Virus record (IMG/VR): IMGVR_UViG_3300047564_005672 | Location: 1 to 30,220 of that record | DNA: 30,220 nt | Direction: 5' to 3' (one strand) | From: a virus | Part shown: in pieces, positions 4,360 to 28,618 of the stretch | Numbering within the stretch: the first letter of the stretch is position 1 | Layout of the letters: each line of letters starts with the position of its first letter | Notes under the pieces: model-generated | Told to the model about the DNA's origin: nothing | Databases searched by the model: none | What the model saw: only the letters and a program-made list of their open reading frames with translations | Position numbers and translations under genes: made by a program

Positions 4360-7300
4360 ATGGCAGATATCACAGTTACCGGTAATGAAGCGTATTTCAA
4401 TAATGATGTAAGATTTTTTAAGGATTTATATATTTACGGAATTTCCTCTTCAACATCTTCTGCTGATGTTAAGAAAATTCTTTATATTGATAGTGATGGA
4501 AAGTTAAAGTACAATGTTGGTATAATAACTGACTTAATTGGTGCTCCTGGTGGTGGGGGTACTGGTGGTGGAATCGGTACAGGTGGTGGTGGAGAGTCTT
4601 TATGGGCAGTTAATCCTGTAGGTATTCACACATTAACCAACGTTGGTATAGGATTAGATTATCCACTTGCCCGTTTTCATGTATCTGGGGATTCTAGATT
4701 TGATGGTAATGTAACTGTTAATGGAAATGTAACCATTACAAATGACTTATCTGCTAATAATGGAATTTTTACTGGTAATATAAGTGCTATTAACGGAACT
4801 TTTTCCGGCGATATTACTGCCAATAATGCTAATTTTATTGGAGTTGCCAGTGCAACTAAGTTCTTTGGAAGTGGAATATATGTTCCAACAATGTATGTGG
4901 CAGATACTCCTCCACTTACTGCGCTTCCAGGAAACTTATGGTATGATTCAAATGAAGGTAGAACATTTTTATATTATCAAGATATTGATTCTTCGCAATG
5001 GGTAGACTTATCTCCACCGGATCCTGGATTAACCTTAACACTTTCTGAGACTGCGCCATCCTCACCATTAATTGGAAATCTTTGGTTTAATACTATAAAG
5101 GGTAGAGCATTTGTCTACTATAATGATGGAGATTCGAATCAGTGGGTAGACTTTTCTCCTGATGGAACTACTCAAATTCCTATTCTATGGAATAGTAATA
5201 CCATCGGTATTCACACTGATGCGAATGTTGGGTTTGGAACAGACTATCCTTTCTCTAGAGTTACTATCAGAGGTGAATTAGAATTTGCCGATGGAAACAT
5301 AACCATAGGAAATTCTTCTACTGGATATTGTAGAACTTCTTCTGGCGGAAATAATATATTTTTAGGCGCAGAAGCAGGTTATTTTAATACTGATTATCAT
5401 AATACTATTGCAATTGGTAGACAAGCAGGATATTGGAATCGCGCTGACAATAATATCTATCTAGGTGAATGTTCTGGTAGAAGTTCTACTAGGAATCCCG
5501 GCGAATTTACTACTGGAACGAATAATATTTTCTTAGGTAAATTATCTGGTGCTAATAATGTATCTGGTGCAGATAATTTATTCTTTGGACAATCATCTGG
5601 TTTCTGTAATGATACTGGAACTTCTAATATATTTTTAGGAAAATTCTCTGGTTGCTATAATCAAACTGGATCATTCAATACATTTATCGGTGAGTGTGCT
5701 GGTACTTCTGCAGGTCCAAATGGTTCTTGTAACAACTTTATTGGATACAAGGCAGGATATTATAATTATAATGCGAATAATAATAATTTCTTCGGTTCTT
5801 ATGCAGGATTTCAGAACTGTGGAAATTCAAACGTATTCATAGGCGAAAGAGCAGGACAAAATAATCGCCTAGCAGGATGTAATATATTCTTCGGACACTG
5901 CACTGGTTTTAATAATAAGACTGGTAATAGCAATACTTTTATTGGCGAACTGGCTGGTCATTCCAATGATAGTGGGAACGAAAATATTTTCATTGGTAAT
6001 AGAGCAGGATACGCAAATACCACTGGTTACAGAAATATTTTCATTGGTGATTGCTCGGGATATTGTAATCAAATTTCTTTTGATAATAATTTCTTTGGAA
6101 ATTTATCCGGATTTAATAATACGATTGGAAGAAGAAATACTTTCATCGGTCAATCTGCAGGATTTAATAACGTATGTGGATTCTATAACAACTTCTTTGG
6201 AAATTACACCGGCAATTCTTCATCAGCATCATATAAAATTCTTCTCGGGCAAGGTTTAGGGGTACCTAATTTTGACCCACCACTATACATTACAAAAAGA
6301 TTTTTTGATGCTTATAATCCAGACAAAGATAAACAATTTGCAATTGGTTTAAACACAACGGGACAATCAGAATACTGGTTGGTTGGTGATGAAAATCTGA
6401 ATATTGGTATTGGTACTGCTGTTCCAAATGCAAGATTGAGTGTACGTGGAGATTCAATCTTTACTGGAATTATTACTGCAGCAAAATTCTTTGGTGATGG
6501 TTCTGGTCTTGTTAATATTCCAAACATTGTTGCTTCTCGTTGGGCAGAAGCAGCACAAGGTCAGGCAGTCGGTATTTGGACATCTGGAAGTGTTGGCATT
6601 GGCACGATTGATCCAACTTCAAGATTAACGGTTAATGGTAACATTAGAGTTATGGGTACGGGTATTGTTACCGCTACCCGATTTGATGGTACTACCTTTA
6701 ATGGCACCACATTTAATGGTACTACGTTTAGTGGTGCTTTTATTGGTGATGGTAGTGGAATTACCAATCTTAGTATGGCAGGTCAGTGGGATTATAACAA
6801 CACTGGCATTCATACGATGCTTAATGTTGGTATTGGAACCACAACATCAACAAATCGCCTAACTGTTTTTGGAAGACAAGAGTTTGTAGGATATAATATC
6901 AAAATTGGGATGTCTTCAGAGGCTACTTCATTATATACACTAAACCCTGAAGAGAAATTTAATACTTTCATTGGATATAGAGCAGGATATAATAATTCTT
7001 CTGGATGTGCAAACAATTATATTGGATATTGTGCCGGAACAAGTAGCGCAAATGCAACCGGAAGTTGGAATAACTTTATGGGTGCATTTGCCGGAAGAAA
7101 TAATTTCTCCGGTTCATCGAATAATTTCTTTGGATATGAAGCCGGTAGAGAAAACACAAGTGGAGGATATAATAATTTCTTTGGTGAATGTGCAGGAAAA
7201 AACAATACTACTGGTTCATATAATACGTTCTTTGGTAGATTTACTGGAACATACAATACCACTGGTAGTTGGAACGTATTTTTAGGATGTAGTACTGGGC

Positions 7301-10300
7301 GTTGTAATTTAACCGGTAGAGAAAACGTATTCTTAGGAAGAGATACTGGACTGTTCAGTACAGGTTCTTATAATAGTTTCTTTGGTGCTTTTGCAGGATG
7401 TTCACTAAGAGAAGGATCATACAATGTTGCTATTGGACACAGTGCTCAATTACTAGATGATTATGGTTCACACCAATTATCAATTGGTGCTGGCAACAGT
7501 TCTTGGATTGTTGGTAACAATGAATTCTTCGTTGGTATTGGTAGTACAATGCCAATATCAAAATTCACTGTTTATGGTGATGCTCACTTCTCCGGTATTG
7601 CAACGTTTGCAAAACTTTATGGAGATGGTTCTGGTCTTTATAATATTACTGCAACGGTAAGTCCCGGTATCAATATCAACAATAATGGAAACTTTGTTGG
7701 TGTTGCGGCAACGCTAAACTTTGATGGATACTTTGATGCCTCTCCAGTTTCTGCCGGTATTGTTACTATCAGTATTAATGATTCAATTAATCAACTCTTT
7801 ATATGGGAAAAAACTTCTGTAGGTGTTAATACACAATCTCGTGTTGGTATTGCAACAACAAGTCCAAGACAAGAACTTGATATTCGTGGAAATGCTATTA
7901 TCAGTGGTGTAACCACGGCATCTACTTTTAATGCCACAAGTTTAATTGTCACTCCTTCGGCAACGATTGATAATTTAACTACTCAGGTTGGATTAATTAA
8001 TAATCTTACTGGTAATAATTTATTATATGTTGGAGTAAGTTCCTTAAGAACATTAACTGGACAATCATTGAATTATGGTAGTGGTATTATTACCAGTTTC
8101 CAAAGTTCGAGTGCTACAATCACAAATATTACTGGTAGCACATTAAGTATCTCTGGATCAAGTAATTTTACAAATGGTCCAGTATTAATTGGAAGTGCGA
8201 TACCAACAGGAACTCCTAATCAAACACTACAAGTTATTGGAAATTCCTACATCAGTGGAAATCTTGGAATTGGAACCACTAGACCGATTGAGAACTTCCA
8301 TTTAATTGGTGATGCAGTAATTTCCGGATTTGTAAGTGCTTCTCAATTTATTGGAGATGGTTCTGGGTTAACTGGTGTTATTGCGGCAAATGCAGACTCT
8401 CTGTGGATTGTAACATCTGTTGGTATTCATACACTCAGAAAAGTTGGTATAGGAACAACAAATCCAACTTCCCAACTTACCGTTGGTGGGAGTATTGGAT
8501 TCGTTGATGATAGTGTCAGAATTGGTAATGAAGAAACTGGTGCTTGTCTTGTTAAGAATATCGGCATTCTGAATGCATTTGTTGGATATGGTGCTGCTGC
8601 CTGTGTAACAACCGGTGCATACAACAGCTTCTTCGGAGCATTTTCGGGAAGATTTAATACTACTGGATGTTATAATAGTTTCTTCGGAACTAATGCTGGA
8701 CAATGTAACACTAGTGGAGATTCTAATAGTTTCTTTGGATTCCTTTCTGGTAGAAATAATACCACTGGATTTAGAAACAGTTTCTTCGGTAGAGCAGCAG
8801 GTCTTTGCAATACTACAGGAAGAACCAATAGTTTCTTCGGATTCTATGCCGGTATTAATAATCTTGCCGGTTGCAACAATACATTCTTCGGTTCATTTAT
8901 TGGATGCTCTCAGAATTCTTCCTATAAGGTTCTGATTGGTAGTGGACAAGGTTCTGCATACTTTGATTTCCCTGTAGTTGAAAGAAGCAAAACTCTTGCA
9001 ATTGGTATTAACTCCTTAGGATTTAATGAGTATTGGTTAGTTGGTAATGAGAGATTAAATGTTGGTATCGGAACCACTAATCCAAATTCTAGACTTTCTG
9101 TTGGTGGAGATGTAGATGTTGCAGGAGTTGTAACTTCCAGAAGACTTGCAACTGGTGGAATTACTGGCACTCAGATTCAAATTACTGGCGTTAGCACTCT
9201 TGGAACTCAGTTAAGTGTTAGCGGTGATGCAAACATTTCTGGAGTTGTTACTGCCGGTATTGTTACTGCCACTACTTTCTTTGGTGATGGTAGCAAACTT
9301 ACTGGAATTATTGCTGAGGGTGCCGGTGTTGTTGTCAGAGACGATGACATTTCCTTTGGAACAGCAGCAATTATAAATTTTGGAGATAATATTAGTCTAA
9401 CTCCAATTATTTCTGGAATTACTACAGTATCAACCACCAACTTCTGGGAAAGTGGTGGAACTGGTATCGTAACTACCGGAAGCATTGGTATTGGAACTAC
9501 ATCAGCATCATCAACACTTACGGTATATGGAGATGCTTTCATTACTGGTGTTGTTACTGCTACCAGATTTTTCGGTGATGTTGGTTATGCGAGTACGGCA
9601 GGAATTGCCACCTACGCTACTAGATCTGGAGTATCCACTTATGCTCAAGTTTCGGGAGTATCGACAAGTGTAAGTGGGGGAACTGCGAATGTAACTTCAC
9701 TGAATGTCACCGGTATTTCTACATTAGGAAATGTTAATCTCAGTAACATTAATAGTGTTGGTGTCATTACTGCCGGTATAGTTACTGCCACAACATTTTA
9801 TGGTGATGGTAGTAAACTCTTTGGAATTAGTGTAGGTATTGCAAGTTACTCTGAGTATTCAAAAGTCTCTGGAATTTCTACATTATCCGGAATTTCGACA
9901 AGTGTAATTGGCGGCATAGCATCCGTATCTCAATTAAATGTAACTGGAATTTCTACATTAGGAATTGTAACCGCAATAAAATATTATGGAGATGGTTCAG
10001 AACTAACTGGAATTATTGCTTCAAAGTGGGTTGAAACATCTGCTGGTATTCACACTCTAGTAAACGTTGGTGTCGGAACTACAAACCCAACCTCAAAACT
10101 CACTGTAGATGGCGACGGTCTCTTTACAGGCGTAGTAACTGCCACTACCTTCTATGGAGATGGTTCTGGTCTAACAGGTGTTATTGCCGCTTCTGGAGTG
10201 AGCGTATGGGATTCTGGATCTCAGGTTGGTACTGCTGCCAGCTTGGACTTTGGAGATAATCTTACAGTTACTTTTAGTTCTGGATATGCCACAATTAATG

Positions 10301-11280
10301 TTGTAACTGGTATTAGCACTCAATGGATTACAACACCAGTTGGAATTCATACTTTCTCAAGCGTTGGTATTGGCACCACAAACCCAACATCAAAACTTTA
10401 TGTAGATGGTAATGCAATCATCACTGGAGTACTAACTGCAGGTATCGTTACTGCCACTACTTTCTTTGGTGATGGTAGCAAATTAACCGGCATTAGTGCT
10501 GGTATTTCTAGTACATCACAGTATGCTCAAGTTGCCGGTATCGCAACCTATGCTTCAGTAGCAGGCGTTTCTACTTATGCTCAGGTTTCTGGTATCTCGA
10601 CTTATGCTCAGGTTGCCGGTATTGCTACTTATGCATCAACCGCAGGAATCGCAACTTATGCGACGAGATCTGGAGTATCAACCTATGCCGAACTTGCCGG
10701 TATTTCTACAAATGTAAGTGGTGGATATGCCTCTCTGACAAGATTAAATGTCACTGGAATTACAACTCTTGGGGTTACTACAGTAACTCAACTGTTTAGT
10801 ACCGGAATAGTAACGGCATTTAGATTTATTGGTGATGGTTCTGGACTAACTGGAGTTGCTGCTGAATCATCTCAGCAGTGGATTACAACTTCTGTTGGAA
10901 TTCATACTCTAGTAAATGTTGGTGTCGGAACCACAAACCCAACATCTAAACTTACTGTTCTCGGTGACATTTATGTAACTGGAGTCATAACTTCAACGGA
11001 CTATGATTCGCTATCTGACCAAAAACTGAAGACGAATATTAAAAATATTCCCGACCCCATCTCAACTGTGATGCAAATTCGTGGTGTTACCTTTGATTGG
11101 AAGGATGGTAATAGAGCATCTGCTGGTGTTATTGCACAAGAAATTGAAAAGGTTCTGCCAGAATTGGTTCACGGTGATGACACGAAGACTGTTAATTATA
11201 ATGGTCTAATTGGATTGTTAATTGAATGTGTTAAGGAGCAACAAAAAGAAATTGACATATTGAAGAAACGATTGTTATGA
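4360..11280 (+). CDS. Giant modular tail fibre with C-terminal S74 intramolecular chaperone
   Basis: This 2306-residue protein is the largest in the window. After a short N-terminus with a Gly-rich hinge (about residues 65-82), it has two copies of a module found in many phage tail proteins, of the form PG.LWYDS..GR.F.YY.D.DS.QWVD (bases about 4900-5160). Three long arrays of 17-residue NTTG..N.FFG..AG beta-roll repeats follow (residues about 331-632, 867-1030 and 1404-1529). They are separated by GDGSGLTGI boxes (about ten in this protein) and IHTL..VGIGTTNPTSKLTV units. Two short 9-residue GIATYA arrays precede the end. Residues 2219-2306 are the endosialidase-type S74 domain. No signal peptide or membrane segment is seen, as expected for a virion protein. 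The S74 domain supports a trimeric fibre whose chaperone is cut off after folding. Receptor specificity cannot be deduced. Confidence 0.85.
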   Translation: MADITVTGNEAYFNNDVRFFKDLYIYGISSSTSSADVKKILYIDSDGKLKYNVGIITDLIGAPGGGGTGGGIGTGGGGESLWAVNPVGIHTLTNVGIGLDYPLARFHVSGDSRFDGNVTVNGNVTITNDLSANNGIFTGNISAINGTFSGDITANNANFIGVASATKFFGSGIYVPTMYVADTPPLTALPGNLWYDSNEGRTFLYYQDIDSSQWVDLSPPDPGLTLTLSETAPSSPLIGNLWFNTIKGRAFVYYNDGDSNQWVDFSPDGTTQIPILWNSNTIGIHTDANVGFGTDYPFSRVTIRGELEFADGNITIGNSSTGYCRTSSGGNNIFLGAEAGYFNTDYHNTIAIGRQAGYWNRADNNIYLGECSGRSSTRNPGEFTTGTNNIFLGKLSGANNVSGADNLFFGQSSGFCNDTGTSNIFLGKFSGCYNQTGSFNTFIGECAGTSAGPNGSCNNFIGYKAGYYNYNANNNNFFGSYAGFQNCGNSNVFIGERAGQNNRLAGCNIFFGHCTGFNNKTGNSNTFIGELAGHSNDSGNENIFIGNRAGYANTTGYRNIFIGDCSGYCNQISFDNNFFGNLSGFNNTIGRRNTFIGQSAGFNNVCGFYNNFFGNYTGNSSSASYKILLGQGLGVPNFDPPLYITKRFFDAYNPDKDKQFAIGLNTTGQSEYWLVGDENLNIGIGTAVPNARLSVRGDSIFTGIITAAKFFGDGSGLVNIPNIVASRWAEAAQGQAVGIWTSGSVGIGTIDPTSRLTVNGNIRVMGTGIVTATRFDGTTFNGTTFNGTTFSGAFIGDGSGITNLSMAGQWDYNNTGIHTMLNVGIGTTTSTNRLTVFGRQEFVGYNIKIGMSSEATSLYTLNPEEKFNTFIGYRAGYNNSSGCANNYIGYCAGTSSANATGSWNNFMGAFAGRNNFSGSSNNFFGYEAGRENTSGGYNNFFGECAGKNNTTGSYNTFFGRFTGTYNTTGSWNVFLGCSTGRCNLTGRENVFLGRDTGLFSTGSYNSFFGAFAGCSLREGSYNVAIGHSAQLLDDYGSHQLSIGAGNSSWIVGNNEFFVGIGSTMPISKFTVYGDAHFSGIATFAKLYGDGSGLYNITATVSPGININNNGNFVGVAATLNFDGYFDASPVSAGIVTISINDSINQLFIWEKTSVGVNTQSRVGIATTSPRQELDIRGNAIISGVTTASTFNATSLIVTPSATIDNLTTQVGLINNLTGNNLLYVGVSSLRTLTGQSLNYGSGIITSFQSSSATITNITGSTLSISGSSNFTNGPVLIGSAIPTGTPNQTLQVIGNSYISGNLGIGTTRPIENFHLIGDAVISGFVSASQFIGDGSGLTGVIAANADSLWIVTSVGIHTLRKVGIGTTNPTSQLTVGGSIGFVDDSVRIGNEETGACLVKNIGILNAFVGYGAAACVTTGAYNSFFGAFSGRFNTTGCYNSFFGTNAGQCNTSGDSNSFFGFLSGRNNTTGFRNSFFGRAAGLCNTTGRTNSFFGFYAGINNLAGCNNTFFGSFIGCSQNSSYKVLIGSGQGSAYFDFPVVERSKTLAIGINSLGFNEYWLVGNERLNVGIGTTNPNSRLSVGGDVDVAGVVTSRRLATGGITGTQIQITGVSTLGTQLSVSGDANISGVVTAGIVTATTFFGDGSKLTGIIAEGAGVVVRDDDISFGTAAIINFGDNISLTPIISGITTVSTTNFWESGGTGIVTTGSIGIGTTSASSTLTVYGDAFITGVVTATRFFGDVGYASTAGIATYATRSGVSTYAQVSGVSTSVSGGTANVTSLNVTGISTLGNVNLSNINSVGVITAGIVTATTFYGDGSKLFGISVGIASYSEYSKVSGISTLSGISTSVIGGIASVSQLNVTGISTLGIVTAIKYYGDGSELTGIIASKWVETSAGIHTLVNVGVGTTNPTSKLTVDGDGLFTGVVTATTFYGDGSGLTGVIAASGVSVWDSGSQVGTAASLDFGDNLTVTFSSGYATINVVTGISTQWITTPVGIHTFSSVGIGTTNPTSKLYVDGNAIITGVLTAGIVTATTFFGDGSKLTGISAGISSTSQYAQVAGIATYASVAGVSTYAQVSGISTYAQVAGIATYASTAGIATYATRSGVSTYAELAGISTNVSGGYASLTRLNVTGITTLGVTTVTQLFSTGIVTAFRFIGDGSGLTGVAAESSQQWITTSVGIHTLVNVGVGTTNPTSKLTVLGDIYVTGVITSTDYDSLSDQKLKTNIKNIPDPISTVMQIRGVTFDWKDGNRASAGVIAQEIEKVLPELVHGDDTKTVNYNGLIGLLIECVKEQQKEIDILKKRLL
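5350..6255 (+). repeat. Beta-roll repeat array 1 in the S74 fibre
   Basis: About 18 degenerate copies of a roughly 51-base unit encode 17-residue repeats of the form NTTG..N.FFG..AG, closed by a SYKILLGQG strand. The regular Asn and Gly turns and paired hydrophobic positions resemble the YadA-like left-handed beta-roll of trimeric adhesins. Cys recurs at the turn positions. Confidence 0.85.
6958..7449 (+). repeat. Beta-roll repeat array 2 in the S74 fibre
   Basis: Nine to ten copies of the same 17-residue repeat family (for example NTTGSYNTFFGRFTG). It is preceded by an IHTMLNVGIGTTTSTNRLTV unit and followed by another fibre linker. Confidence 0.85.
8569..8946 (+). repeat. Beta-roll repeat array 3 in the S74 fibre
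   Basis: Seven copies of the 17-residue repeat, closed by SYKVLIGSG. The same closing strand type (YKILLGQG, YKVIVGSG, NKIILGRG) ends arrays elsewhere in the window, so it is probably the cap of the roll. Confidence 0.85.
10534..10722 (+). repeat. 27-bp / 9-residue GIATYA repeats in the S74 fibre
   Basis: Seven consecutive in-frame 27-base units encode AGIATYASV-type nonapeptides and end in AGISTNVSG. A shorter array of three units lies at about 9598-9678. The same unit occurs in four of the five large fibres in this window. Confidence 0.9.
11014..11280 (+). other. S74 (chaperone of endosialidase) autoprocessing domain
   Basis: The last 88 residues begin at Ser2219-Asp2220 and read SDQKLKTNIKNI, then FDWKDGNRASAGVIAQEIEK and LPELV, and end in a coiled-coil-like helix (IECVKEQQKEIDILKKRLL). 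In endosialidases and other S74 proteins the domain assembles the trimer and then cleaves itself off at a Ser-Asp bond. The expected Ser-Asp and the downstream Lys residues are present, so the domain is probably active. The expected product is a mature fibre of about 2218 residues. Confidence 0.92.
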
Positions 11281-11327: not shown

Positions 11328-14300
11328 ATGGCAATTAAAATTATAGGTTCTACTATCATTGATGATAGTAGGAATATTGTTAATGCTGGTATTGTAACTG
11401 CAACGTCTGTAGCGATTGGAACGGCTCAGGTTGTAAGTTCAGGGCAAGAACTGCAAAATATTTTATCATTAGACAATGTAACTACAGAAACCATTCAGAA
11501 AATTTCTGGAGTTTCTTTAAGAGAAGACGGAAATATTGTAGGATTTGCTAAGACTGTAAATTTTACTGGTGTAGGCGTAGATGTCTCACCAGTTTCTAGT
11601 GGAATATCGACGGTATCAATAAATGGATTCCCATCAATCACAAATCTCCTCTACGTCACAAAAAACGGAAGTGACACAAACGACGGGAGAACTCTTGGAG
11701 AAGCAAAGGCAACTATCAAAGGAGCAGTTGCAGCAGCAACAGAGGGAACTGTTATTAAGGTTAGTGCTGGAACTTATGTAGAAGATAACCCAATAACTCT
11801 ACCAAATCAAGTTAGTGTTGTTGGAGATAGTCTTCGTGAAGTTACGGTAACTCCACAAAATCAGGGAGACTTGTTTTACGTTGGGGAAGGAAATTATGTT
11901 GCAGAGATGTCCTTCATCGGAGCACCAAATCCCGGAGCAATCTTTTCCTTTGACCCTGCCGCTGCACGATATAACGCTCAGTCACCATACATTCAAAACT
12001 GTACCAATTTCATACCTGACAGTATAGGTCTTAAAATTGATGGTAAGTTATCGATTGGACCAACAAAAAGTATGGTGTTGGACTCCTATACTCAATATAA
12101 TCAAGGCGGAATCGGATGCTCAATTACGAATGAAGGATATGCTCAGTTAGTTTCTTTATTTACTATTTGTAATGAAGTTGCGGTATACTGTGGTTCTGGT
12201 GGTGCCTGTGATCTAACAAACTCCAACTCATCATTCGGAGATTATGCTCTCATTGCAGATGGTGTAAGTCCTCTTAAATTTACTGGTTCAATCGTAGAAG
12301 AAGCAGAATCAAATTCGGATACATTTGTGATTGATTTAAATGTTCCAACTCTAGGAGTTGTAACAGCACGTTATGACAATGTAAGTGGAATTGTAACTAT
12401 TACCACAGACCAACCACATAATTTTAATGTTGGTATGGGAGTTTCAATTGTTGGGTTAGCATTTACTTGCCCATCAGGTCCAGAAACTTTAATATATCCT
12501 ACTGGAAATTATGGATATAAATTTGAAGTTAGAACCGTAGCACCAGCAAGATATGTTGATGCCTCAAACTTAATCAGAGCAAATAGGACAGAGATACAAG
12601 ATAAATCACTAGCAGCAATTGCGATTAGTCATCCAGATTTTTATTTTCCTGGAGACCCACAAACCACAGAATACTCTAGATTTTATGATTCTTATCGTCT
12701 AATTCAGCAAAACAAGCAAGAAATCGTAGATAAATCTCTTGCTTCAATTGCAGTTGGATTTCCATCAGGATTTTATTTCCCAGATGAACCGGAAACAAAT
12801 TCTCGGTCGAGATATTATGATGCATCTGGATTAATTCAGAGAAACAAACAAGAAATTGTTGATAAGTCTTTAGGTTCGATTGCAATTGCTCACTCGGACT
12901 TTTATTTTCCTGGAGATTTACAATCAAATCTAAGATCGAGATATTTTGATTCTTATAGATTAATTCAAAATAATAAAGACGTAATTGTTAGTATTGCTTG
13001 GACAAATGCTTATAATGTATATCCCGGAATTGCAACTTCTGAAGCAAAATGTAAAAGAGACTTGGGATTTTTTATTGATGCAATTTCAACAGATGTACTA
13101 ACTGGAGGAAATAATTATGCTCGTCAGTTTGCCTTACAATACTTTGATAGTGCCGGAAATCCAATCACAAATGGTCTGCAAGGTGAGGAAGTAGCATCTA
13201 ATTATGCATTTGTTGAAGCAAGAGAATTGATGAAAGATGCGATTACTAATACTTTGGTTGGGGCTGCTTATAGTGATTTGACCATTACCCCTGATTCGGC
13301 GGTAGGATTCAATACAAGTCCGGATTCTTGTGCCGATGTTCAGACAAACATTGATAATCTTGTTGGTATCGTAACAACTGTAATTGGGTCCGGTAACTTA
13401 TCATCTTTACCAAGTGCTAATTTAGGATACTTTAATATAAGCATAGAGATTGGTGGTACTCCACCTCCCGGAGATTCTCCTGGTGGATATAAATGTGCAA
13501 GGGACTTGGGATATTTGGTCGATGCTGTTGCCACAGATGTATTTACCGGAGGAAATAAGTATTCCAGAGATTTTACCTTACAATACTTTGATAATTCTGG
13601 AAATCCCATATCCAATGGATTGGTTGGAGAAACGGTTGAATCTATAACTGCTTTCAATTCTTCTAGAGAATTGATGAAGAAGGCAATTACCAATCAATTA
13701 AATGTTAAAAATCTTGGTATTAGTTCCGGACCTGCTTCTTATGCCGGTGTAGGAACTTCTCTGGTAGTTCTTCAATCGGGTAACCCAAATTCTTGTACAG
13801 ATGTTCAGGCAAATATTGATAGTCTTGTAGGTATCATTACATCAGTTATTGGTGTTGGAAGTACTGGAATACTATCAACATTCAATGAAAATCTTGGAAT
13901 AACCACAACAAATAAATGTGCGCGAGATTTGGGATATTTTGTTGATGCTATTTCCACTGACATATTTACTGGCGGTAATTCTTATTCTATTGCATTCACT
14001 AAATTCTATTTTAATAATGTTGGATCTGCCACGACTGCGCTATTGGGTGAAGAGGCAGAATCCGTATATGCATTTGTTTCTGCACGACAATTATCTAAGA
14101 AGGCAATTACCAACCAATTAAATAAAAAGGACTTAACCGTTACTGCAGACCCACTTACCGGAAGCAATATTGATTGGGATTCTTGTGCAAATGTTCAGAG
14201 TGCAATTGACACTCTTGTTGGCATTACGACTCAGGCAATTAGTTCTGCTAGTTTAACAGTACTAAATTCTATCAATGTTAATCCCGGAATATTCATAACG

Positions 14301-18191: not shown

Positions 18192-21100
18192 ATGGCAGGC
18201 AAGAGTCGTCAATCCGCAAATCTAACTTCTAAGAACAACATCTTTGTAGATGCGGTTGCCGATAATACTGGAATAGGAAGCGCAAGTCCCAAAAGTAAAC
18301 TAGACGTTGTTGGTAGTGCAAGAATTTCCGGCATTCTAACCGTAGGAATATCTTCGTCTGTTACAATTGATGGCAATACAGGAATCGTAAGTGCCACTAA
18401 ATTATATGCTGCCGGTATTGACGTAGCATCCTTTATTGCCGGTGCAGGTTATGCAAATACTTCGGGTATTGCAACTTATGCCGTTAGTTCAGGTATTGCA
18501 ACTTATGCATCTTCTAGTGGAATATCAACGATATCATCAGGATTAACAACAACAGTAAGTGTTAATACGAGTGGAATTATAACTGCATCGTCTCTTGTTG
18601 GTAGTGGTTCTAGTATTACTGGAATCTTCATCAACCAGTTAGAAGATGTAGATATTATAGAAGGAACTATTAGCGATGGTCGTGCTTTAATTAATGTAAA
18701 TGGTAAGTGGAAAACAGGTCCTGTTATTGGGGGATATGAATATTTTTCGGGTAATGATCCGTATATTGGCAATGTAAGTATTGCTTTACCTTATGACACA
18801 GATTTCTTAGATAAAAGTGGTAATTTTGATCAAATTAGTTCTATATTAGTTGTAACACAAAGTGGTACACCTGGCATTACTACGAGCATTAAAAAATATG
18901 GAGCAGGTGCTTTATCTTTAAATGGTACTAGTTATTTAACTTATACTACATTAACCAATCAATCAGACTTTAATATTGGAACTGGCGATTTCACATTTGA
19001 ATTATGGGCTAGAGATACTAAAGGTTTTAGTGCTCGTGGTCTTTGCCTTTTCCACGGTATTGAAATAATAGTCGATGCTGGAAATAATCTTAGTATAAGA
19101 CTAGGTAGCACTAGCTTTAGCGTCAGTAGTACCTTCTTTAACATTATTAATAATTGGGTATATATTGCCATAACTAGAGAAAGTGGTACGGTAAGATTTT
19201 TTACTGATGGAGTATTGCGTAGTACACATACAGGAAATACTTCAAACCTATCGTATGGTACCGGGTGGATTGGGAGGGCTAATCCAGCTTCTCCTTATAA
19301 CTGGACAGGACAAATTGATGACATTCGTTATACAAAGGGAATTGCCAGATATACTTCTACTTTTTCGCCTCCATCTGCAGCTATTCTAGGAGATTATATT
19401 TCTCTTCCATATTCTATTAATAATTTAGATGATGTTGATACATCTAGCAATGCACCAGTTACTGGACAATCACTTGTTTGGAATCAATCTACTAGTAAAT
19501 GGGAGCCAGGATATACTGGTCTAACGACAACTACAAGTGTCAATACAACGGGTATTATAACAGCATCATCATTTGTAGGTATTGGTTCTGGTCTTACTGG
19601 AGTTATTGGTGTATCGACTCAGTGGATTACAACATCTGCAGGAATTCATACTTTATCGAATGTTGGCATTGGAACTACAAATCCAACATCAAAACTTGAT
19701 GTTCGTGGTGATGTTATTATTTCTGGTATTATAACGGCATCATCATTCGTTGGTAACTTAACTGGAACGGCAACAACTGCTACCACATTAACAAATGATG
19801 CTAGTGTTAATACTAGTGGTATCGTAACTGCAACAAAGTTTGTTGGAGATGGTTCTGGATTAAGTGGTATTGTTGCTGCCGGTAGTGGTGGAATATCACT
19901 TCAAAACGATAGTAACCCTGTAGGAACTGCTGGAACTATTAATTTTGATAATAATTTTGACCTTGAAATCTCCGGAGGAATTGCAACAGTTACCTTATTA
20001 ACTGCTCCAGGACTTACATCAACCGCAAGTGTCAATACAACCGGTATTATAACTGCATCTAACTTTAGTGGAACTTTTGCGGGAAATTTTGTTGGTAGTG
20101 GTTCTAGTCTGACTGGAGTTATTGGTCTATCAACTCAATGGATTACTACATCTGCAGGAATTCATACACTATCTAAGGTTGGAATAGGAACCACCAATCC
20201 AATATCAACACTAGAGGTTTTTGGAAATGTTAATGTTGCCGGAACTTCTGGTCAATTGTTCTCGGTAGTTGATAATCTATCAACGGGTAGTATTTTTAGT
20301 GTTAATGATATTAGTGGTATTCCAAGTATTGATGTAAATGCCGATGGAACTATTCAACTAGCTCCGTTTAATGGTAATGTTGGTGTAGGAACGACAAGAC
20401 CAAGAGCAAGAGTTGACGTAATAGGAACATTATGGGCATCTAATATTTCAGTAGGAGTTATAACGGCAACCACATTTTCTGGAAATCTTGTAACTCTTGT
20501 GAATGGTAGAACGGGTATTGTTTCAATAGGAATAGTCAGTATGACTGACTTCCTATATCAACCACAAGGAGTTGTAACACTTACTGATAGATGGGATTCT
20601 TATAATGCAATCAACTCCAGTGGTGGGTGGGACTTATCATCGGCTAATTCATTAACAATTGTTAGATTAAACTGGGTTCCTTCATCTTCTCAAAATGGAA
20701 CTAGTGGATCTACTTGGAGAACTAATTTCTTAGACAAAGTTAAGGCAGGAGATTTAGTTCAGTGGAGTAAAGATGGAATTACTTGGAACTCTTTTATTCA
20801 ACCTTTTGATTCTGTAAATACTGGATCTAATAGTGTTGGATTTTATCCCGGTTCTTCAGTTCCAACTGGTGGGTCAATGTATGTCCGATACATTACTACC
20901 AAAGCAGTGGGAGTTCAACCTCTCCAAAACGGCCAAATTTTACAATACGATTCTGCTTATACTAAATGGATGCCATTTGGACCGTATGCAAATTGGGAAT
21001 CAACGTCCGTAGGAATTAATACTTTAAGAAATGTTGGTATTGGAACCACAAATCCAACTTCAAGACTGACAATAGAAGGTGGGGGAATCAATGTTAGAAC

Positions 21101-22106
21101 CACTACAAGTAATTCTTTTTTAGTTTTAGATGCTGGAATAGGACCTGCAGCTGGAAATCAAGTATCTTTTATTGATTTTAAATTTAATGGAGATCTTAAA
21201 GGAAATATTGCTATTAATGAATCATTTTCTACAACACCTTTAGAAATAAACTCTGCAGTATCAAATGACGTCATAATTTCATCTGGCGGTGGAAGAGTTG
21301 GTATAGGAACGACAAATCCATCATCAAGACTAACAGTTAGTGGTGGTATACTAGTTTCTGGTGTAGTAACAGCATCATCATTTATTGGAACTACATTTAT
21401 TGGCAACCTAACAGGAACCGCAACGACTGCCAATACACTCACAAGTGATGCCAGTGTTAATACTAGTGGTGTCGTAACCGCAACAAAGTTTGTTGGAGAT
21501 GGTTCTGGTCTTACTGGAATTGTTGCAACAAGTGGTGGTGGGGTTTTTATACAAAATGATAACATTAATATTGGTGCGGCATCAACAATTAATTTTACAA
21601 GCAACTTTACTGTTGAATCTACTGCAGGAATTGTAACTGTCGGTATTAATACTGCAAGCACGATAACCGCAGCAGCATTTATTGGTGATGGTTCTGGTCT
21701 TACAAATGTGAGTGGTGCCGGTGGAGCATCCTCTAGAACCACTGTTTCTGGAATTACTACGGTATTAGTGGTAAATGGAATTGGAAATACTGAAATATCC
21801 GGATTTAAGACTTATGGACTACTCAAAGTTGGTGTATCCAGTGCATCTTGGGTACGCCTATATACTGATAGTGTTTCAAGATCTAATGATGCATCTAGAT
21901 CAATTGAAGTAGACCCAATTACTGGAAGTGGGGTGATTGCAGAAGTCGCAACAAGTGGAATTTCTACTGTGAAAATGACTCCCTTTATTATTGGATTTAA
22001 TGATGATAATCCAGTTACCAATACAATCTATGTGTCAGTCAAGAATTTGTCAGGAATATCAACCAGTATTTCAGTTAACTTAACAATTTTAAAAATGGAG
22101 GAATAA
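18192..22106 (+). CDS. Tail fibre with LamG-like lectin domain
   Basis: The 1304-residue protein opens with MAGKSRQSANLTSKNNIFVD, a likely attachment segment. A short GIATYA stretch follows, then a LamG/concanavalin-like domain at residues about 196-400. That domain's signatures include FNIGTGDFTFELWARDT, NWVYIAITRESGTVRFFTDG and IDDIRYTKGIARYTSTFSPP. Three STQWITTSAGIHTLS-type and related units with VGIGTTNP follow. Residues about 790-927 form an unrecognised Trp-rich insert. The last 120 residues match a module common at the ends of cyanophage virion proteins (WVRLYTDSVSRSNDASRSIEVDP, then MTPFIIGFNDDNPVTNTIYV). LamG-like folds often bind carbohydrate, so glycan binding at the cell surface is a reasonable inference, not shown. 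It ends with a GGAGG that serves the next gene. Confidence 0.78.
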   Translation: MAGKSRQSANLTSKNNIFVDAVADNTGIGSASPKSKLDVVGSARISGILTVGISSSVTIDGNTGIVSATKLYAAGIDVASFIAGAGYANTSGIATYAVSSGIATYASSSGISTISSGLTTTVSVNTSGIITASSLVGSGSSITGIFINQLEDVDIIEGTISDGRALINVNGKWKTGPVIGGYEYFSGNDPYIGNVSIALPYDTDFLDKSGNFDQISSILVVTQSGTPGITTSIKKYGAGALSLNGTSYLTYTTLTNQSDFNIGTGDFTFELWARDTKGFSARGLCLFHGIEIIVDAGNNLSIRLGSTSFSVSSTFFNIINNWVYIAITRESGTVRFFTDGVLRSTHTGNTSNLSYGTGWIGRANPASPYNWTGQIDDIRYTKGIARYTSTFSPPSAAILGDYISLPYSINNLDDVDTSSNAPVTGQSLVWNQSTSKWEPGYTGLTTTTSVNTTGIITASSFVGIGSGLTGVIGVSTQWITTSAGIHTLSNVGIGTTNPTSKLDVRGDVIISGIITASSFVGNLTGTATTATTLTNDASVNTSGIVTATKFVGDGSGLSGIVAAGSGGISLQNDSNPVGTAGTINFDNNFDLEISGGIATVTLLTAPGLTSTASVNTTGIITASNFSGTFAGNFVGSGSSLTGVIGLSTQWITTSAGIHTLSKVGIGTTNPISTLEVFGNVNVAGTSGQLFSVVDNLSTGSIFSVNDISGIPSIDVNADGTIQLAPFNGNVGVGTTRPRARVDVIGTLWASNISVGVITATTFSGNLVTLVNGRTGIVSIGIVSMTDFLYQPQGVVTLTDRWDSYNAINSSGGWDLSSANSLTIVRLNWVPSSSQNGTSGSTWRTNFLDKVKAGDLVQWSKDGITWNSFIQPFDSVNTGSNSVGFYPGSSVPTGGSMYVRYITTKAVGVQPLQNGQILQYDSAYTKWMPFGPYANWESTSVGINTLRNVGIGTTNPTSRLTIEGGGINVRTTTSNSFLVLDAGIGPAAGNQVSFIDFKFNGDLKGNIAINESFSTTPLEINSAVSNDVIISSGGGRVGIGTTNPSSRLTVSGGILVSGVVTASSFIGTTFIGNLTGTATTANTLTSDASVNTSGVVTATKFVGDGSGLTGIVATSGGGVFIQNDNINIGAASTINFTSNFTVESTAGIVTVGINTASTITAAAFIGDGSGLTNVSGAGGASSRTTVSGITTVLVVNGIGNTEISGFKTYGLLKVGVSSASWVRLYTDSVSRSNDASRSIEVDPITGSGVIAEVATSGISTVKMTPFIIGFNDDNPVTNTIYVSVKNLSGISTSISVNLTILKMEE
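18778..19389 (+). other. LamG-like (concanavalin-type) domain A
   Basis: It encodes the LamG_3-type pattern: a GALSLNGTSYLTY strand, FTFELWARDT, WVYIAITRESGTVRFFTDGVL, IGRANP, then the closing IDDIRYTKGIARYT. It sits between a GIATYA/ISSGLTT linker and a STQWITTSAGIHTL unit. Confidence 0.85.
22097..22101 (+). promoter_or_regulatory. Shine-Dalgarno GGAGG
   Basis: GGAGG overlaps the last codons of the LamG fibre and lies 6 bases before the ATG at 22108, fixing that start. Confidence 0.8.
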
Positions 22107-23154: not shown

Positions 23155-23155
23155 T

Positions 23156-23385: not shown

Positions 23386-23401
23386 ACTAAAAAGTATTAT
23401 A

Positions 23402-25336
23402 ATGCCTACTCAAGTTCAGTTTAGAAGAGGAAACGAAGGACAGAATAATAACTTTAAAGGTGCTGCCGGAGAAATTTCCGTAAATACCAGTACTAATTCC
23501 GTTCGTGTTCATAATGGAATTACCACTGGCGGATTTGAATTAGCACGAGCAGACCTGTCAAACGTTGGAAATGTTTCTCTCTCTGGTATTGTAACTGCAA
23601 CTGCATTCGTAGGCGATGGTTCTGGTCTTACCGGAATACAAGATTTAACGGGTCCTTGGGTATCAGGGCAAGTTGGAATATATACAAACTCTTATGTTGG
23701 AATCGGGACCACAAATCCAGAATATGACTTACACGTTATTGGTAATGCACGAATTACTGGTATCCTAACTATTGGTAATGCGTCTATTACGATTGATGGT
23801 AATAATAATGATATTAATATTGGATCTGGTGTAACTGTTTACGGTAATACCGGAATCATTAGTGCTTCGGCATTTTATGTTGGAAATGTTGATTTAGCAT
23901 CGGCATCTGGATATGCAAAAACTGCGGGTATTGCAACATACGCCACTAATGCTGGAGTAAGTACTTATGCATCTTCTAGTGGTATATCATCAATATCATC
24001 AGGTCTGACGACAAATGCAAACGTTAATACTACAGGTATTATAACCGCATCATCTCTTGTTGGGTATGGATCTTCTTCTTATCAATTATCACTACCTGTA
24101 ATTGATCCTTATATCAGTAATGTATCTTTACTATTACACGGAGATGGTGCTAATGGAAGCACTTCAATCACTGATTCTAGTCCTAGTGCAAAAACAATAA
24201 ATCGCTTCGGTAGCGTTGCACTTAGCAATGTCCAAAGTAAATTTGGTGAATCATCTATCTATTTTCCAGGCACTGCTGGATCATATACTGAGGTTTCTAA
24301 TTCTGGAACTGATTTTGATTTTCCTGGAGATTTTACTGTAGAATTTTGGTTTTATTGGTCTGATAGTTCTGGAGGAACCCAAATAATCTATGATGCGCGA
24401 GGTTCTAATCATTTTGCAATTGGACTAAACGAGCCAAGTGCAGGAAAAATCTTTCTTTTCTATAATTTTTCATTTTTACTTCAAGCTTCTGTAAGCACTG
24501 GTCTTTGGTATCACGTTGCAGTAAGTCGTAGTTCGGGAACTTTACGTTTATTCTTAAATGGAATAGAACAATCATCTGCTTCAAATAGTACTTCATTTAC
24601 AGGTTCTTCAACAAATAGACCAATAATAGGAAGAGGGTTTAATAATGCTGCAGAATTGAGGGGATATTTAGATGAGTTTCGCGTAACAAAAGGTGTAGGT
24701 AGGTATACTAGCAATTTTTCAGTTCCTACTACGCCATTCCCCGATAACTCACTTTCATTAAGATATCACAAAAATCTTCAAATAAGTGATTTGGATGCAA
24801 ATCCAAATCACTTAATTAATAATTTAGGAATCGGAACCACTAATCCAACATCAAAACTCACAGTTAGTGGTAATGCATTAGTTTCTGGTGTTGTAACTGC
24901 ATCATCATTTGTTGGTGATGGTTCTGGATTAACTAATATTGTCGCAACCGGAACTGGAGTAGAAGTTAGAGATAATGGAACTGTAGTAGGAACTGCAAGA
25001 ACACTAGACTTTGGAAACAACCTTGATGTAACCTTCAGTGCAGGCATTATGACTGTCACTGGAGCATCAGGTGCAGAGTTCTTAAAGAATGAATCTGGTA
25101 TTTCGACAACTTCTAGTGTTGGAATTGGAACAACTCAACCAGTTGCCAAATTGCACGTTAATGGAGCAATTGCAATATCAGCATCTCCAATCTTTATGGG
25201 AAAAAACACCGTAGAAGAATCGGTGACTGTTCCTTCTGGATATAATGCTATGAGCATTGGTCCAATACTCACTGTGGGAACCGGAGTTACTGTAACTGTC
25301 GAGGCTGGTGCCAACTGGTTTGTATTGGGGCAGTAA
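23402..25336 (+). CDS. Tail fibre with tropism-determinant-like N-terminus and LamG-like domain
   Basis: The 644-residue protein opens with QVQFRRGNEGQNNNFKGAAG and EISVNT....VRVHNG. This matches the RRG....GE..... pattern of the Mtd-type N-terminal domain found on many phage receptor-binding proteins. A GDGSGLTGI box, a VGIGTTNPEYDL unit and a short GIATYA stretch follow. A LamG-like domain occupies residues about 240-449 (DFPGDFTVEFWFYW, WYHVAVSRSSGTLRLFLNG, LDEFRVTKGVGRYTSNFSVP). A second GIGTTNPTSKLTV unit follows. The C-terminus (SVTVPSGYNAMSIGPILTVG, TVTVEAGANWFVLGQ) is a common phage fibre-tip module. No C-type lectin variable region is seen. The protein is probably a receptor-binding fibre. 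Confidence 0.78.
   Translation: MPTQVQFRRGNEGQNNNFKGAAGEISVNTSTNSVRVHNGITTGGFELARADLSNVGNVSLSGIVTATAFVGDGSGLTGIQDLTGPWVSGQVGIYTNSYVGIGTTNPEYDLHVIGNARITGILTIGNASITIDGNNNDINIGSGVTVYGNTGIISASAFYVGNVDLASASGYAKTAGIATYATNAGVSTYASSSGISSISSGLTTNANVNTTGIITASSLVGYGSSSYQLSLPVIDPYISNVSLLLHGDGANGSTSITDSSPSAKTINRFGSVALSNVQSKFGESSIYFPGTAGSYTEVSNSGTDFDFPGDFTVEFWFYWSDSSGGTQIIYDARGSNHFAIGLNEPSAGKIFLFYNFSFLLQASVSTGLWYHVAVSRSSGTLRLFLNGIEQSSASNSTSFTGSSTNRPIIGRGFNNAAELRGYLDEFRVTKGVGRYTSNFSVPTTPFPDNSLSLRYHKNLQISDLDANPNHLINNLGIGTTNPTSKLTVSGNALVSGVVTASSFVGDGSGLTNIVATGTGVEVRDNGTVVGTARTLDFGNNLDVTFSAGIMTVTGASGAEFLKNESGISTTSSVGIGTTQPVAKLHVNGAIAISASPIFMGKNTVEESVTVPSGYNAMSIGPILTVGTGVTVTVEAGANWFVLGQ
24120..24748 (+). other. 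LamG-like (concanavalin-type) domain B
   Basis: It shows the same strand order as the LamG-like domain at 18778-19389: SIYFPG near the start, FTVEFWFYW, LWYHVAVSRSSGTLRLFLNG, IIGRGF, and the closing LDEFRVTKGVGRYTSNFS. The protein-level similarity is clear, whereas the DNA is well diverged. Confidence 0.85.
24783..24814 (+). other. Perfect 14-bp inverted repeat with GCAA loop inside a coding region
   Basis: TAAGTGATTTGGAT at 24783-24796 is followed by GCAA and then by its exact reverse complement at 24801-24814. GCAA is a GNRA tetraloop. The hairpin lies just after the LamG-like domain and before the next VGIGTTNPTSKL unit. No T-run of terminator type follows (TTAATTAATAATTT instead), so its role is open. 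Confidence 0.85.
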
Positions 25337-25338
25337 TC

Positions 25339-25346
25339 TATAAATA
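25339..25346 (+). promoter_or_regulatory. Candidate late promoter box (exact TATAAATA)
   Basis: An exact match to the T4 late -10 box TATAAATA lies in the 39-base gap, 29 bases before the ATG at 25376. This leaves room for a short leader that includes AAGGA at 25356-25360. It is the best promoter candidate in the window and would drive the beta-roll fibre and the genes after it. Confidence 0.6.
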
Positions 25347-25375
25347 AGTAAAGAAAAGGAATTTAACTAGTAACG

Positions 25376-28300
25376 ATGTCAGAAATTAGAGTTGATAGGA
25401 TAGTTGATTCTACAGGTAATAGTCCTGTAATCTATTTGGACCCAAATTCAAGTGAAGTTCGTATTGGAACTGGTATTACGTTTAATACAATTACGAACCA
25501 AATTATACTTGGCGATACTGCGATAGGAGATATTTCTGGAAATGCAAACTTTAGTGGAATTTTAACCGCTGCCGCATTCGTTGGCGATGGTTCTGGACTG
25601 ACTAACATTGTTTCTACGGGAAGTGGAGTAGAAGTCAGAGATAATGGTTCTGTAGTAGGAACTGCTTCTACGATTGATTTTGGTGACAACCTAACAGTTT
25701 CTTTTGGTGCGGGCATTGTGACCGTGACCAGCACATCTGCTGGTGGAGGAGCATCAGACTTTGTAAGAACTTCGGCAGGTATTCATACACTAGGTAATGT
25801 TGGTGTGGGAACCACAAATCCAACAACAGCACTAGAAATCAATGGCACTTTAGGATTTAGAACATTTTCTGCAGGTCTTAATATCAGTATAGGTAATACT
25901 ACAACTGGGTCTAGTATAACTCCAAGTCTAGTTGGTGAGGATGGACTTAATAATATCTTTATGGGTATCGATGCCGGTAAGTCTACTACTACCGGAAGAG
26001 ATAATATCTTTCTTGGAAGATATTCTGGATGTAGTAACACTGATGGATTTAGTAATAATTTCTTAGGATGGGCTTCTGGATGTTCCAATACTACTGGATG
26101 CTATAATACTTTCTTTGGTACATATGCAGGTTCGTATAATACTACCGGAGGGTATAATATATTCTTTGGTAGTTTTTCTGGACTTTGTAATACTACTGGA
26201 TATGGTAATAATTTCTTAGGATATTCTACGGGTCAATATAATACTACTGGAAGTTATAATAGTTTCTTTGGAAAATCCGCAGGAGAATCGAATACTACCG
26301 GATGCTATAACGCCTTCTTTGGAAATTATTCTAGTCTAAGAAATACTACCGGATGTTATAATAGTTCATTTGGAGTTTATTCTGCACAAGACACTACATC
26401 TGGAAGTTATAATAGTTCCTTCGGTGATTATTCGGCAAGTAACAACACAACTGGAAACTATAATTTATTCTTAGGAGGTAATACCGGCATTTCTACATCA
26501 GCATCATATAAAGTAATTGTGGGTAGTGGTAGTGCTGGATTTGGAGGTCTATTCGATTCTCCAAATACTACCAAAGATATGCAGTTTGCCGTTGGTGTAA
26601 AAACAACAACTTCATCTTCATCAAAGTATTGGATAACAGGTGATGAAAATATGAATCTTGTATTTTATAATTCAGTTATTTTTAATAATGATAATATAAA
26701 AATAGGATATTTTGCTGGAGGTAATGCTGTTGGTGGCGGTAATAATGTTTTTATAGGGTATGGTGCAGGATATAGTAATTCGGGAGCATGTGATAATAAC
26801 TTCATAGGTAATGGTGCTGGGTATTACAACACAACAGGAGAATTCAATAGCTTCTTTGGAGAAGATTCTGGAAATTCTAATACCATTGGATGTAGCAATA
26901 GTTTCTTTGGAAGAATGTCTGGATGCTGTAATACTACAGGATCTCGCAATAGTTTCTTTGGAACAAGATCCGGAAGTGATAATCGAACTGGAAGTCATAA
27001 TGTATTTTTGGGTGCTTATAGTGGAATTTCAACAGCATCTTCTAATAAAGTAATTATTGGAGTTGGTACTGTAATTAGTAGTACTAGATACTTATTTGAT
27101 TCTCCAGACACGACTAGAAATACCCAGTTAGCAATCGGCGCAAGAACCGATGCTAATCCAAGTAATTATTGGTTAGTCGGTGATGAGAACTTCAACGTTG
27201 GTATTGGAACTACTAATCCTACATCAAAACTCCAAGTAGGAGGAACTGTAACGGCATCCGCATTCGTTGGTGATGGTTCTGGACTTACTAATCTACCTTC
27301 TGGTGGTGGAGGAGCATCAGACTTCGTAAGAACTTCGGCAGGAATTCATACACTTGGTAATGTTGGATTAGGGACCACGAATCCAACAACAGCACTCTCC
27401 GTTAATGGTGTTATTAGTTTTAGAAGAGATAATATAAGACTAGGTGGTAGCACTACCGGGTCCAGAATAACTACTGGTAATGATAACGTTTTTATGGGAG
27501 TTGGTGCTGGTAGTTCTACTACTACTGGAGATTATAATAATTTCATTGGTTATCTGGCAGGATATTACAATACTTCTGGAAATAGTAATAACTTCTTTGG
27601 ATGTCAAGCAGGATATTTCAATACTCTTGGAGTTGATAATAACTTCTTTGGTTCTTTTGCAGGATATAGTAACATTGATGGAGTTTACAATAACTTTATT
27701 GGTTGTGGTGCAGGATTTTTCAACACTACTGGAAGGGACAATAACTTCTTTGGTTCTAATGCAGGATACTCTAATACTACGGGAGAATATAATAATTTCA
27801 TTGGTTCTTCTGCTGGTCTTGATAATACAACTGGATGTTTTAATAACTTCTTTGGTCTTCTGGCAGGTCAAACTAATACAACTGGAAATTCTAATAACTT
27901 CTTTGGAAATTCTGCCGGATATTATAACACCACTGGAAATGATAATAACTTCCTTGGCGATTTTTCTGGAGGATATAATACTACAGGAAGTTCTAATTTC
28001 TTTGGTGGCGATAGTGCGGGATATTGCAACATTACTGGAAACTTTAATACTTTCTTGGGTTCTTATTCTGGTATCTCAACATCAGCATCTAATAAGATTA
28101 TACTAGGTCGTGGCAATACATTTAACTATCTCTTTGACGCACCAGACACTACCAAAAACACCCAATTTGCTGTCGGTGTAAGAACTGATGCTAATCTAAG
28201 TAAGTATTGGTTAGTAGGTAATGAGAACTTTAACATCGGTATCGGAACCACAAATCCAACTGAAAAACTATCGGTCGGTGGAAATATTTCCCTGAATCAA

Positions 28301-28618
28301 ACAACCGTTTATGGTTCTGTTCAGGCATCTACGGCATCGACAAGTGTAACAGGGATTCATTCTGGTCTTTCAACATCCGTTTATCGTTCGGTCGAGTACA
28401 CGATTCAGGCAACACAAGGAACAAACTATCAGGCAGTTAAGATTCTTGTCATTCACGATGGAACAACTGCGTATGATACTCAATACGGTAACATATATAA
28501 TACTGAAGTCGCAACATTTGATGTTGACATTTCGGGAGGAAATGTTAGACTGGTAGCAGCAGCTTCTTCAACTTCAACAACAAATTACACTGTCAACTTT
28601 ATTGCAACTAGAATATAA
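25376..28618 (+). CDS. Beta-roll tail fibre protein
   Basis: The 1080-residue protein begins MSEIRVDRIVDSTGNSP, an N-terminus typical of cyanomyovirus fibre-like proteins. It contains three arrays of 17-residue NTTG..N.FFG..AG repeats (bases 25946-26530, 26741-27067 and 27479-28114). These are separated by GDGSGLTN boxes and WLVGDENFNVGIGTTNPTSKL units. A block reading GGGASDFVRTSAGIHTLGNV occurs twice, so part of the gene is an internal duplication. The last 115 residues or so form a compact C-terminal domain (YRSVEYTIQATQGTNYQAVK, ILVIHDGTTAYDTQYG, FDVDISGGNVRL) that is recurrent in marine phage virion proteins. Unlike the 2306-residue fibre, it has no S74 chaperone. The exact TATAAATA box upstream suggests late expression. 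Confidence 0.8.
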   Translation: MSEIRVDRIVDSTGNSPVIYLDPNSSEVRIGTGITFNTITNQIILGDTAIGDISGNANFSGILTAAAFVGDGSGLTNIVSTGSGVEVRDNGSVVGTASTIDFGDNLTVSFGAGIVTVTSTSAGGGASDFVRTSAGIHTLGNVGVGTTNPTTALEINGTLGFRTFSAGLNISIGNTTTGSSITPSLVGEDGLNNIFMGIDAGKSTTTGRDNIFLGRYSGCSNTDGFSNNFLGWASGCSNTTGCYNTFFGTYAGSYNTTGGYNIFFGSFSGLCNTTGYGNNFLGYSTGQYNTTGSYNSFFGKSAGESNTTGCYNAFFGNYSSLRNTTGCYNSSFGVYSAQDTTSGSYNSSFGDYSASNNTTGNYNLFLGGNTGISTSASYKVIVGSGSAGFGGLFDSPNTTKDMQFAVGVKTTTSSSSKYWITGDENMNLVFYNSVIFNNDNIKIGYFAGGNAVGGGNNVFIGYGAGYSNSGACDNNFIGNGAGYYNTTGEFNSFFGEDSGNSNTIGCSNSFFGRMSGCCNTTGSRNSFFGTRSGSDNRTGSHNVFLGAYSGISTASSNKVIIGVGTVISSTRYLFDSPDTTRNTQLAIGARTDANPSNYWLVGDENFNVGIGTTNPTSKLQVGGTVTASAFVGDGSGLTNLPSGGGGASDFVRTSAGIHTLGNVGLGTTNPTTALSVNGVISFRRDNIRLGGSTTGSRITTGNDNVFMGVGAGSSTTTGDYNNFIGYLAGYYNTSGNSNNFFGCQAGYFNTLGVDNNFFGSFAGYSNIDGVYNNFIGCGAGFFNTTGRDNNFFGSNAGYSNTTGEYNNFIGSSAGLDNTTGCFNNFFGLLAGQTNTTGNSNNFFGNSAGYYNTTGNDNNFLGDFSGGYNTTGSSNFFGGDSAGYCNITGNFNTFLGSYSGISTSASNKIILGRGNTFNYLFDAPDTTKNTQFAVGVRTDANLSKYWLVGNENFNIGIGTTNPTEKLSVGGNISLNQTTVYGSVQASTASTSVTGIHSGLSTSVYRSVEYTIQATQGTNYQAVKILVIHDGTTAYDTQYGNIYNTEVATFDVDISGGNVRLVAAASSTSTTNYTVNFIATRI
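25946..26530 (+). repeat. Beta-roll repeat array A of the 1080-residue fibre
   Basis: About eleven 51-base units encode NTTG-type 17-mers, closed by SYKVIVGSG. Several units are near identical at the DNA level around aatactactgga. Cys recurs in the GCYN and SGCSN turns. Confidence 0.9.
26741..27067 (+). repeat. Beta-roll repeat array B of the 1080-residue fibre
   Basis: Six units of the same 17-residue family run from NNVFIGYGAG to the closing SNKVIIGVG. Confidence 0.88.
27479..28114 (+). repeat. Beta-roll repeat array C of the 1080-residue fibre
   Basis: Twelve units, the most regular array in the window, dominated by NTTGxxNNFFGxxAGYY. The closing strand is SNKIILGRG. The aataacttctttgg core recurs in most units. 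Confidence 0.9.

Follow-up and report, generated by a model that had tools for sequence, protein, structure and literature searches.

Fibre parts have been reassorted between gene slots and between head-tip combinations in the phage lineage to which the DNA analysed here belongs. The window, i.e., the whole stretch under analysis, covers the whole of a 30,220-base IMG/VR virus record, very likely a genome fragment, and represents the tail-fibre island of a Kyanoviridae-like, T4-like cyanophage from fresh water. The best explanation of the locus, to which we assign a probability of roughly 0.7, is that its large fibre genes share their connectors, that heads, LamG modules and tips are movable between them, and that crossing over is carried out by general recombination on paralogues or on co-infecting relatives. 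The island is a rich and well-supported case of known receptor-binding-protein shuffling; its unusual point is that several neighbouring fibre genes draw on one kit, the principle itself being known from other phages.

Setting and composition of the fibre island

The tail protein of the window matches 469 phage records, nearly all of them from cyanophages, as expected of the Kyanoviridae, and its best named relative is that of Synechococcus phage S-SRM01 (Kyanoviridae, freshwater reservoir; 64%). When named phages were searched for near DNA relatives of the window, just two short matches were obtained. On the left flank, the tail protein (84-1049; phrog_350, 2e-84) and the baseplate hub (1055-3577; phrog_1922, 2e-128) form a block (84-3577) that is conserved and syntenic in two relatives, G001 and G011; these and the window features given with coordinates below lie on the plus strand. 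Upstream, G001 carries single-strand-binding protein, PhoH and tail-tube families. The hub includes a (GAA)n collagen-like run at 1580-1736 (Pfam Collagen, 4.5e-7), the length of which varies strongly among relatives (about 55 residues in the window, 8 in G001). The hub is followed by a 255-aa gene, the 2306- and 1374-aa fibre genes, a 113-aa gene, the 789- and 1304-aa fibre genes, 348- and 95-aa genes, the 644- and 1080-aa fibre genes, a sulfotransferase gene forming the conserved right flank (28626-29528; Pfam PF13469, 1.3e-14) and two small genes.

Five of these genes, encoding proteins of 2306 (4360-11280), 789 (15800-18169), 1304 (18192-22106), 644 (23402-25336) and 1080 residues (25376-28618), had been described in an initial, sequence-only reading as all built from the same parts. 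By regular expression, GDGSGLTGI-type boxes number 10, 4, 6, 3 and 2 in these proteins, in that order, giving a total of 25 where about 24 had been estimated by eye, and VGIGTTNP-type boxes number 14, 2, 5, 3 and 4, giving a total of 28. Both totals lie far above the level reached in residue shuffles (0.03-0.13 per protein and pattern, i.e., about 0.1), and the same expressions found no box in the neighbouring 1374-, 840-, 348-, 321- and 300-aa proteins. The notion of common parts therefore stands for the two box types, but does not extend to the arrays: 9-residue GIATYA repeats occur chiefly in the 789- and 2306-aa proteins, making up most of the former, and are absent from the 1080-aa protein, and the beta-roll-like FFG repeats are restricted to the 2306- and 1080-aa proteins, counts in the other three being those of chance.

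The ends of the proteins had been named correctly, with a GQTIF-type end in the 789-aa protein and WVRLYTDS, YNAMSIGP and YRSVEY tips in the 1304-, 644- and 1080-aa proteins, respectively. The S74 chaperone tip is also present as proposed, being confined to the end of the 2306-aa protein (Peptidase_S74 intramolecular chaperone, 11014-11172; Pfam PF13884, 3.9e-14), and it resembles the distal subunit of a long tail fibre (PDB 6f45). At the opposite end, the 1304-aa protein starts with a GKSRQSANL head and the 644-aa protein with an Mtd_N-like head (aa 1-95, 23402-23686; Pfam PF18454, 3.4e-8; PDB 1yu0 series, 3e-10). In addition, LamG (lectin-like) modules, overlooked in the earlier reading, were found in the 1304-aa (18942-19328; Pfam PF13385, 3.8e-13) and 644-aa proteins. 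Judging by family names (LamG PF13385, S74 PF13884, tail-fibre PHROGs), these fibre modules probably function in host recognition.

A sixth fibre gene, likewise missing from the earlier reading, encodes the 1374-aa short-tail-fibre-like protein (11328-15452; phrog_4527, 1e-184). It is box-free and serves as an internal control, and two comparisons with relatives revealed no breakpoints in it. This protein has internal repeats of its own (CARDLGY/VDAI and NKQEIVDKSL units); its Phycobilisome match (Pfam, 3.5e-4) falls short of the cut-off.

Movement of modules among syntenic relatives

Five relatives, all metagenome contigs, were recovered from IMG/VR scans. The DNA identity to the window is about 80-86% for G001, G012, G003 and G004, and about 72-78% for G011; G012 equals G004 over 8 kb, and G003 shares at least 99.99% identity with G004 across shared blocks. 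The surroundings of the fibre genes follow the same order in three lineages, which permits a position-by-position comparison of the fibre genes. Neither a fixed module order nor an absence of breakpoints at shared boxes was found in this comparison: modules switch gene in syntenic relatives, and a given domain recurs in fibre proteins of related phages that differ in their other parts, as seen for LamG and for the head-tip exchanges.

The LamG exchange is located in the G001 orthologue of the 1304-aa gene. Its head is 99% identical to the G012 head, whereas its LamG shares 31% identity with the G012 LamG and 92% with the module in the 644-aa gene of the window, after which 1304-type sequence resumes. 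The LamG-bearing stretch of the 644-aa gene (24016-24903) thus sits in a different gene of G001, at 83.7% DNA identity, which is about background for this pair of sequences. A GDGSG-type box (LVGYGSSS, 24056-24079) lies at the left edge of the moved LamG, and a GDGSGL box (24908-24931) at the right edge of the moved stretch. In a LamG tree, two pairs are clear at 100/100, and the deeper forks, on long branches, did not resolve.

Heads and tips have been recombined as well. The window combines GKSRQSANL with WVRLYTDS, MPTQVQF with YNAMSIGP and MSEIRVD with YRSVEY. G004 has the first of these pairs, and joins MPTQVQF to YRSVEY within a single 1666-aa gene, in which the head of the 644-aa protein is fused to the tip of the 1080-aa protein (28271-28615 in the window, with 94% identity to the terminus of the fused gene). 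The switch point is the box at 24056-24079, and the 644 LamG, the 644 tip and the 1080 head are missing from G004. In G011, the same 644-head/1080-tip pair (MPTQVQF+YRSVEY) occurs in a 914-aa gene, a 189-aa gene combines the 1304-type head with a YNEMSIGP tip (GKSRQSANL+YNEMSIGP), and a WIRLYIDD tip is found under a new head (MSTLKVN+WIRLYIDD). Outside the island, G004 encodes a second WVRLYTDS-type tip, combined with a different head in a short protein (L104:3035-3769).

Internal blocks show comparable changes. The middle block of the 1080-aa gene (26036-27231) has its best match in a different G004 fibre gene, located downstream of the sulfotransferase gene (77.5% DNA and 83% protein identity). 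In G012 and G004, residues 956-1033 of the 1304-aa protein (21057-21290) are replaced by an unrelated 92-aa block, the swap falling exactly between two VGIGTTNP boxes (21033-21056 and 21297-21320). Furthermore, the G011 orthologue of the 789-aa gene contains a 578-aa double-LamG insertion inside its GIATYA array. Exchange is concentrated in the 1304-, 644- and 1080-aa genes, and the upstream 2306- and 789-aa genes are nearly collinear with the closest relative. Collinearity of the 2306-aa gene is interrupted at the N-terminal region, at one repeat array and at a tandem duplication, with the S74 tip staying in place; the 789-aa gene and its counterpart in the closer lineage are collinear. Assigning orthologues gene by gene fails for the fibre genes of this locus.

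Breakpoints and routes of exchange

Breakpoints were defined as block edges from a segmentation of protein alignments (n = 26) and were counted as box-associated when located within 8 residues of a box (≤8). By this measure 7/26 edges lie at boxes, compared with 37% (0.367) in simulated random swaps, which were aligned identically and carry the same alignment bias as the real breakpoints. The proposal that breakpoints fall at shared boxes is accordingly borne out for several gene-to-gene switches, with exact borders at conserved repeated motifs in the 1304-aa block and the 644-gene switches, but not as an overall enrichment, and boxes were rejected as general breakpoint hot spots. The seven box-associated edges are gene-to-gene or block switches, a selection made after viewing the data; the remaining edges lie in GIATYA or FFG arrays, which are likewise shared parts, and in linkers. 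An extended set from more contig pairs gave chiefly array and linker breakpoints.

At the DNA level, identity between the genes surpasses the level forced by protein sequence. Different fibre genes have 41 exact 20-mers in common, against a mean of 5.3 (maximum 16) after synonymous-codon shuffling, and the longest exact cross-gene match spans 35 b (at 16703 and 19617), where such shuffles never exceeded 27. The claim that short stretches remain very similar in DNA proved accurate. In the stretches it named, codons agree at 62-67% of identical residues between paralogues; codon usage would predict 40%, and orthologues of the sister lineage agree at 66-77%. Three tracts are nearer to a paralogue in the window than to any sister sequence: 16670-16760 of the 789-aa gene, 92% identical over 90 b to 19572-19677 of the 1304-aa gene; 18447-18612 of the 1304-aa gene, closest to 23909-24074 of the 644-aa gene; and 24872-25022, closest to 25541-25690. 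All three sit at module edges, and they suggest, rather than prove, local exchange within one genome. Of the original proposal, the interchange of parts between slots is upheld, and recombination among paralogues of one genome is only suggested, by these three short tracts.

The most serious alternative, which we rate at somewhat below even odds, is that exchange has been horizontal only. Modules would then be acquired from other phages, into the same slot or a neighbouring one, and the similarity of the five genes would reflect old duplication under protein constraint, with no paralogue recombination. This account is favoured by the box copies, which are overwhelmingly orthologous (12577 orthology-type sites in GDGSG boxes versus 231 concerted and 205 crossed), and by the moved LamG, the divergence of which is that ordinarily seen between lineages. 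It also agrees with the reach of head-tip mixing into many distant contigs, where 29 combinations were counted among 49 distinct proteins in automatic clusters; some heads were merged in these clusters via shared repeat text, and the head-tip claim itself rests on the three inspected lineages. Against it stand the excess of cross-gene exact matches over synonymous nulls, the three tracts nearer to the window's own paralogues, and the fact that modules switch slot, not just allele.

Gene conversion of boxes across paralogues was considered and rejected, concerted evolution being not significant (P = 0.128 for each box type). Since box copies track orthology, there has been no general homogenisation since the lineages split, and because the boxes are not evolving in concert, exchange between co-infecting phages explains much of the pattern equally well. 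Much of the exchange may have taken place between phages and not inside one genome. A self-contained, multigene combinatorial system, in which the paralogues of one genome keep DNA-similar connectors so that modules can be reshuffled from slot to slot, no dedicated enzyme being involved, appears doubtful.

Slippage and unequal crossing-over inside single genes, instead of module exchange, form an improbable explanation of the differences. Many of these do reflect gain or loss of 9- or 17-residue repeat copies, and the G011 orthologue of the 2306-aa gene has a 79-aa tandem duplication; slippage is, however, unable to place the LamG of the 644-aa gene in the 1304-gene slot or to create new head-tip pairs. 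As a full account it is ruled out by these cases, although it holds for the arrays.

It is more improbable still that short-read assembly joined different fibre genes at repeats and that the chimeras are not real. Such repeats do break assemblies, and contigs of G001 and G003 from IMG sample 3300008110 (L101, L105 against L203, L103) lack, at repeat positions, stretches of 114, 160, 80 and 60 b that are retained by contigs of other samples, identical in all other respects. One such omission breaks the frame of the 2306-aa gene of G001. The missing stretches are perhaps collapsed scaffold gaps, and the join of the exchanged G001 gene to its left flank is uncertain, the exchanged gene itself being one open frame. 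Against an artefact, each exchanged gene forms a long open frame, and its parts show 83-92% DNA identity to every other known copy, far too diverged for k-mer joins; the exchanged LamG gene in particular is not a join of the other variant, because the shared parts differ from that variant by 8-14%. Furthermore, the fused G004 gene is matched at the level of at least 99.99% by a G003 contig from another sample, its head is matched by G012 from a third sample, and the more distant lineage G011 shows the same head-tip fusion.

Mtd is the target of the diversity-generating retroelement (DGR) of Bordetella phage BPP-1. The Mtd_N and PDB Mtd matches of the 644-aa head could point to a dedicated diversifier, either a DGR or an invertase, but such a driver is hardly credible: the match is limited to the N-terminal 95 residues, the changes are block swaps and not scattered adenine mutations, and searches near the fibre genes for RVT_1 and Resolvase gave no match in six fragments (the window and its five relatives), leaving neither a reverse transcriptase nor a serine resolvase there as expected of a DGR or of an invertase-switched fibre.

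Under the preferred reading, i.e., general recombination across shared connectors, the five large fibre genes have connector repeats of beta structure in common, namely the GDGSGLTGI and VGIGTTNP boxes together with arrays of GIATYA and FFG units, with heads, LamG lectin-like modules and tips as the movable pieces. The shared repeats could supply enough in-frame DNA homology for crossing over between fibre genes, on which the general recombination machinery of the phage would act, using paralogues or co-infecting relatives as partners. Altered receptor binding would be the likely outcome, and a dedicated diversifying enzyme would not be required. RecA/UvsX was not found in the relatives' fragments (RecA and phrog_97 searched). 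Lambda-like phages are able to recombine sequences that are only 67-88% identical (PMC3945230).

Relation to known systems

In T-even-like phages, conserved repeated motifs reportedly flank variable host-binding fibre segments, which are exchanged by recombination. The present locus resembles that adhesin system in part: conserved motifs border some of the exchanged fibre segments, but breakpoints overall show no enrichment at boxes. The T-even-like adhesins are reportedly alleles of one locus (Tetart et al. 1998, J Mol Biol 282:543, as cited in PMC6027323), whereas here connectors are common to several neighbouring paralogues, between which heads, lectin modules and tips switch gene. A survey across genomes (Smug et al. 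2023, PMC10684548) documented recent exchange of fragments among tail fibres and spikes, with no mention of cyanophages found; here, by contrast, a single syntenic locus with orthologous flanks makes the destinations of the parts visible. In metaviromic islands of marine phages, lectin-like host-recognition genes vary within near-identical populations (PMC3909814). That variability was inferred from read recruitment, whereas the rearranged architectures were read directly here. The relaxed homologous recombination that De Paepe et al. 2014 (PMC3945230) described for Rad52-like recombinases of phages offers a model for the crossing over of diverged sequences, side tail fibre genes among them; it was tested in lambda-like phages, and the recombinase of the present phage does not lie in the fragment. 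The tail locus of S-SRM01 is alike in that tail protein and hub are followed by fibre genes, but it contains different fibre genes and interposed genes, and has no near DNA match to the window. In the literature searched, the coverage of which is incomplete, one kit shared by neighbouring fibre genes was not found described for cyanophages.

The island provides a concrete locus, with syntenic relatives, for following lectin-like modules and tips between fibre genes. If the exchanges reflect changes in host range, the repeat architecture of the fibres would be linked to the speed at which freshwater cyanophages meet new receptors. In relatives reaching that far, the sulfotransferase gene lies directly 3' of the fibre genes, beside differing fibre variants, and it is a possible candidate for fibre or host-surface modification.
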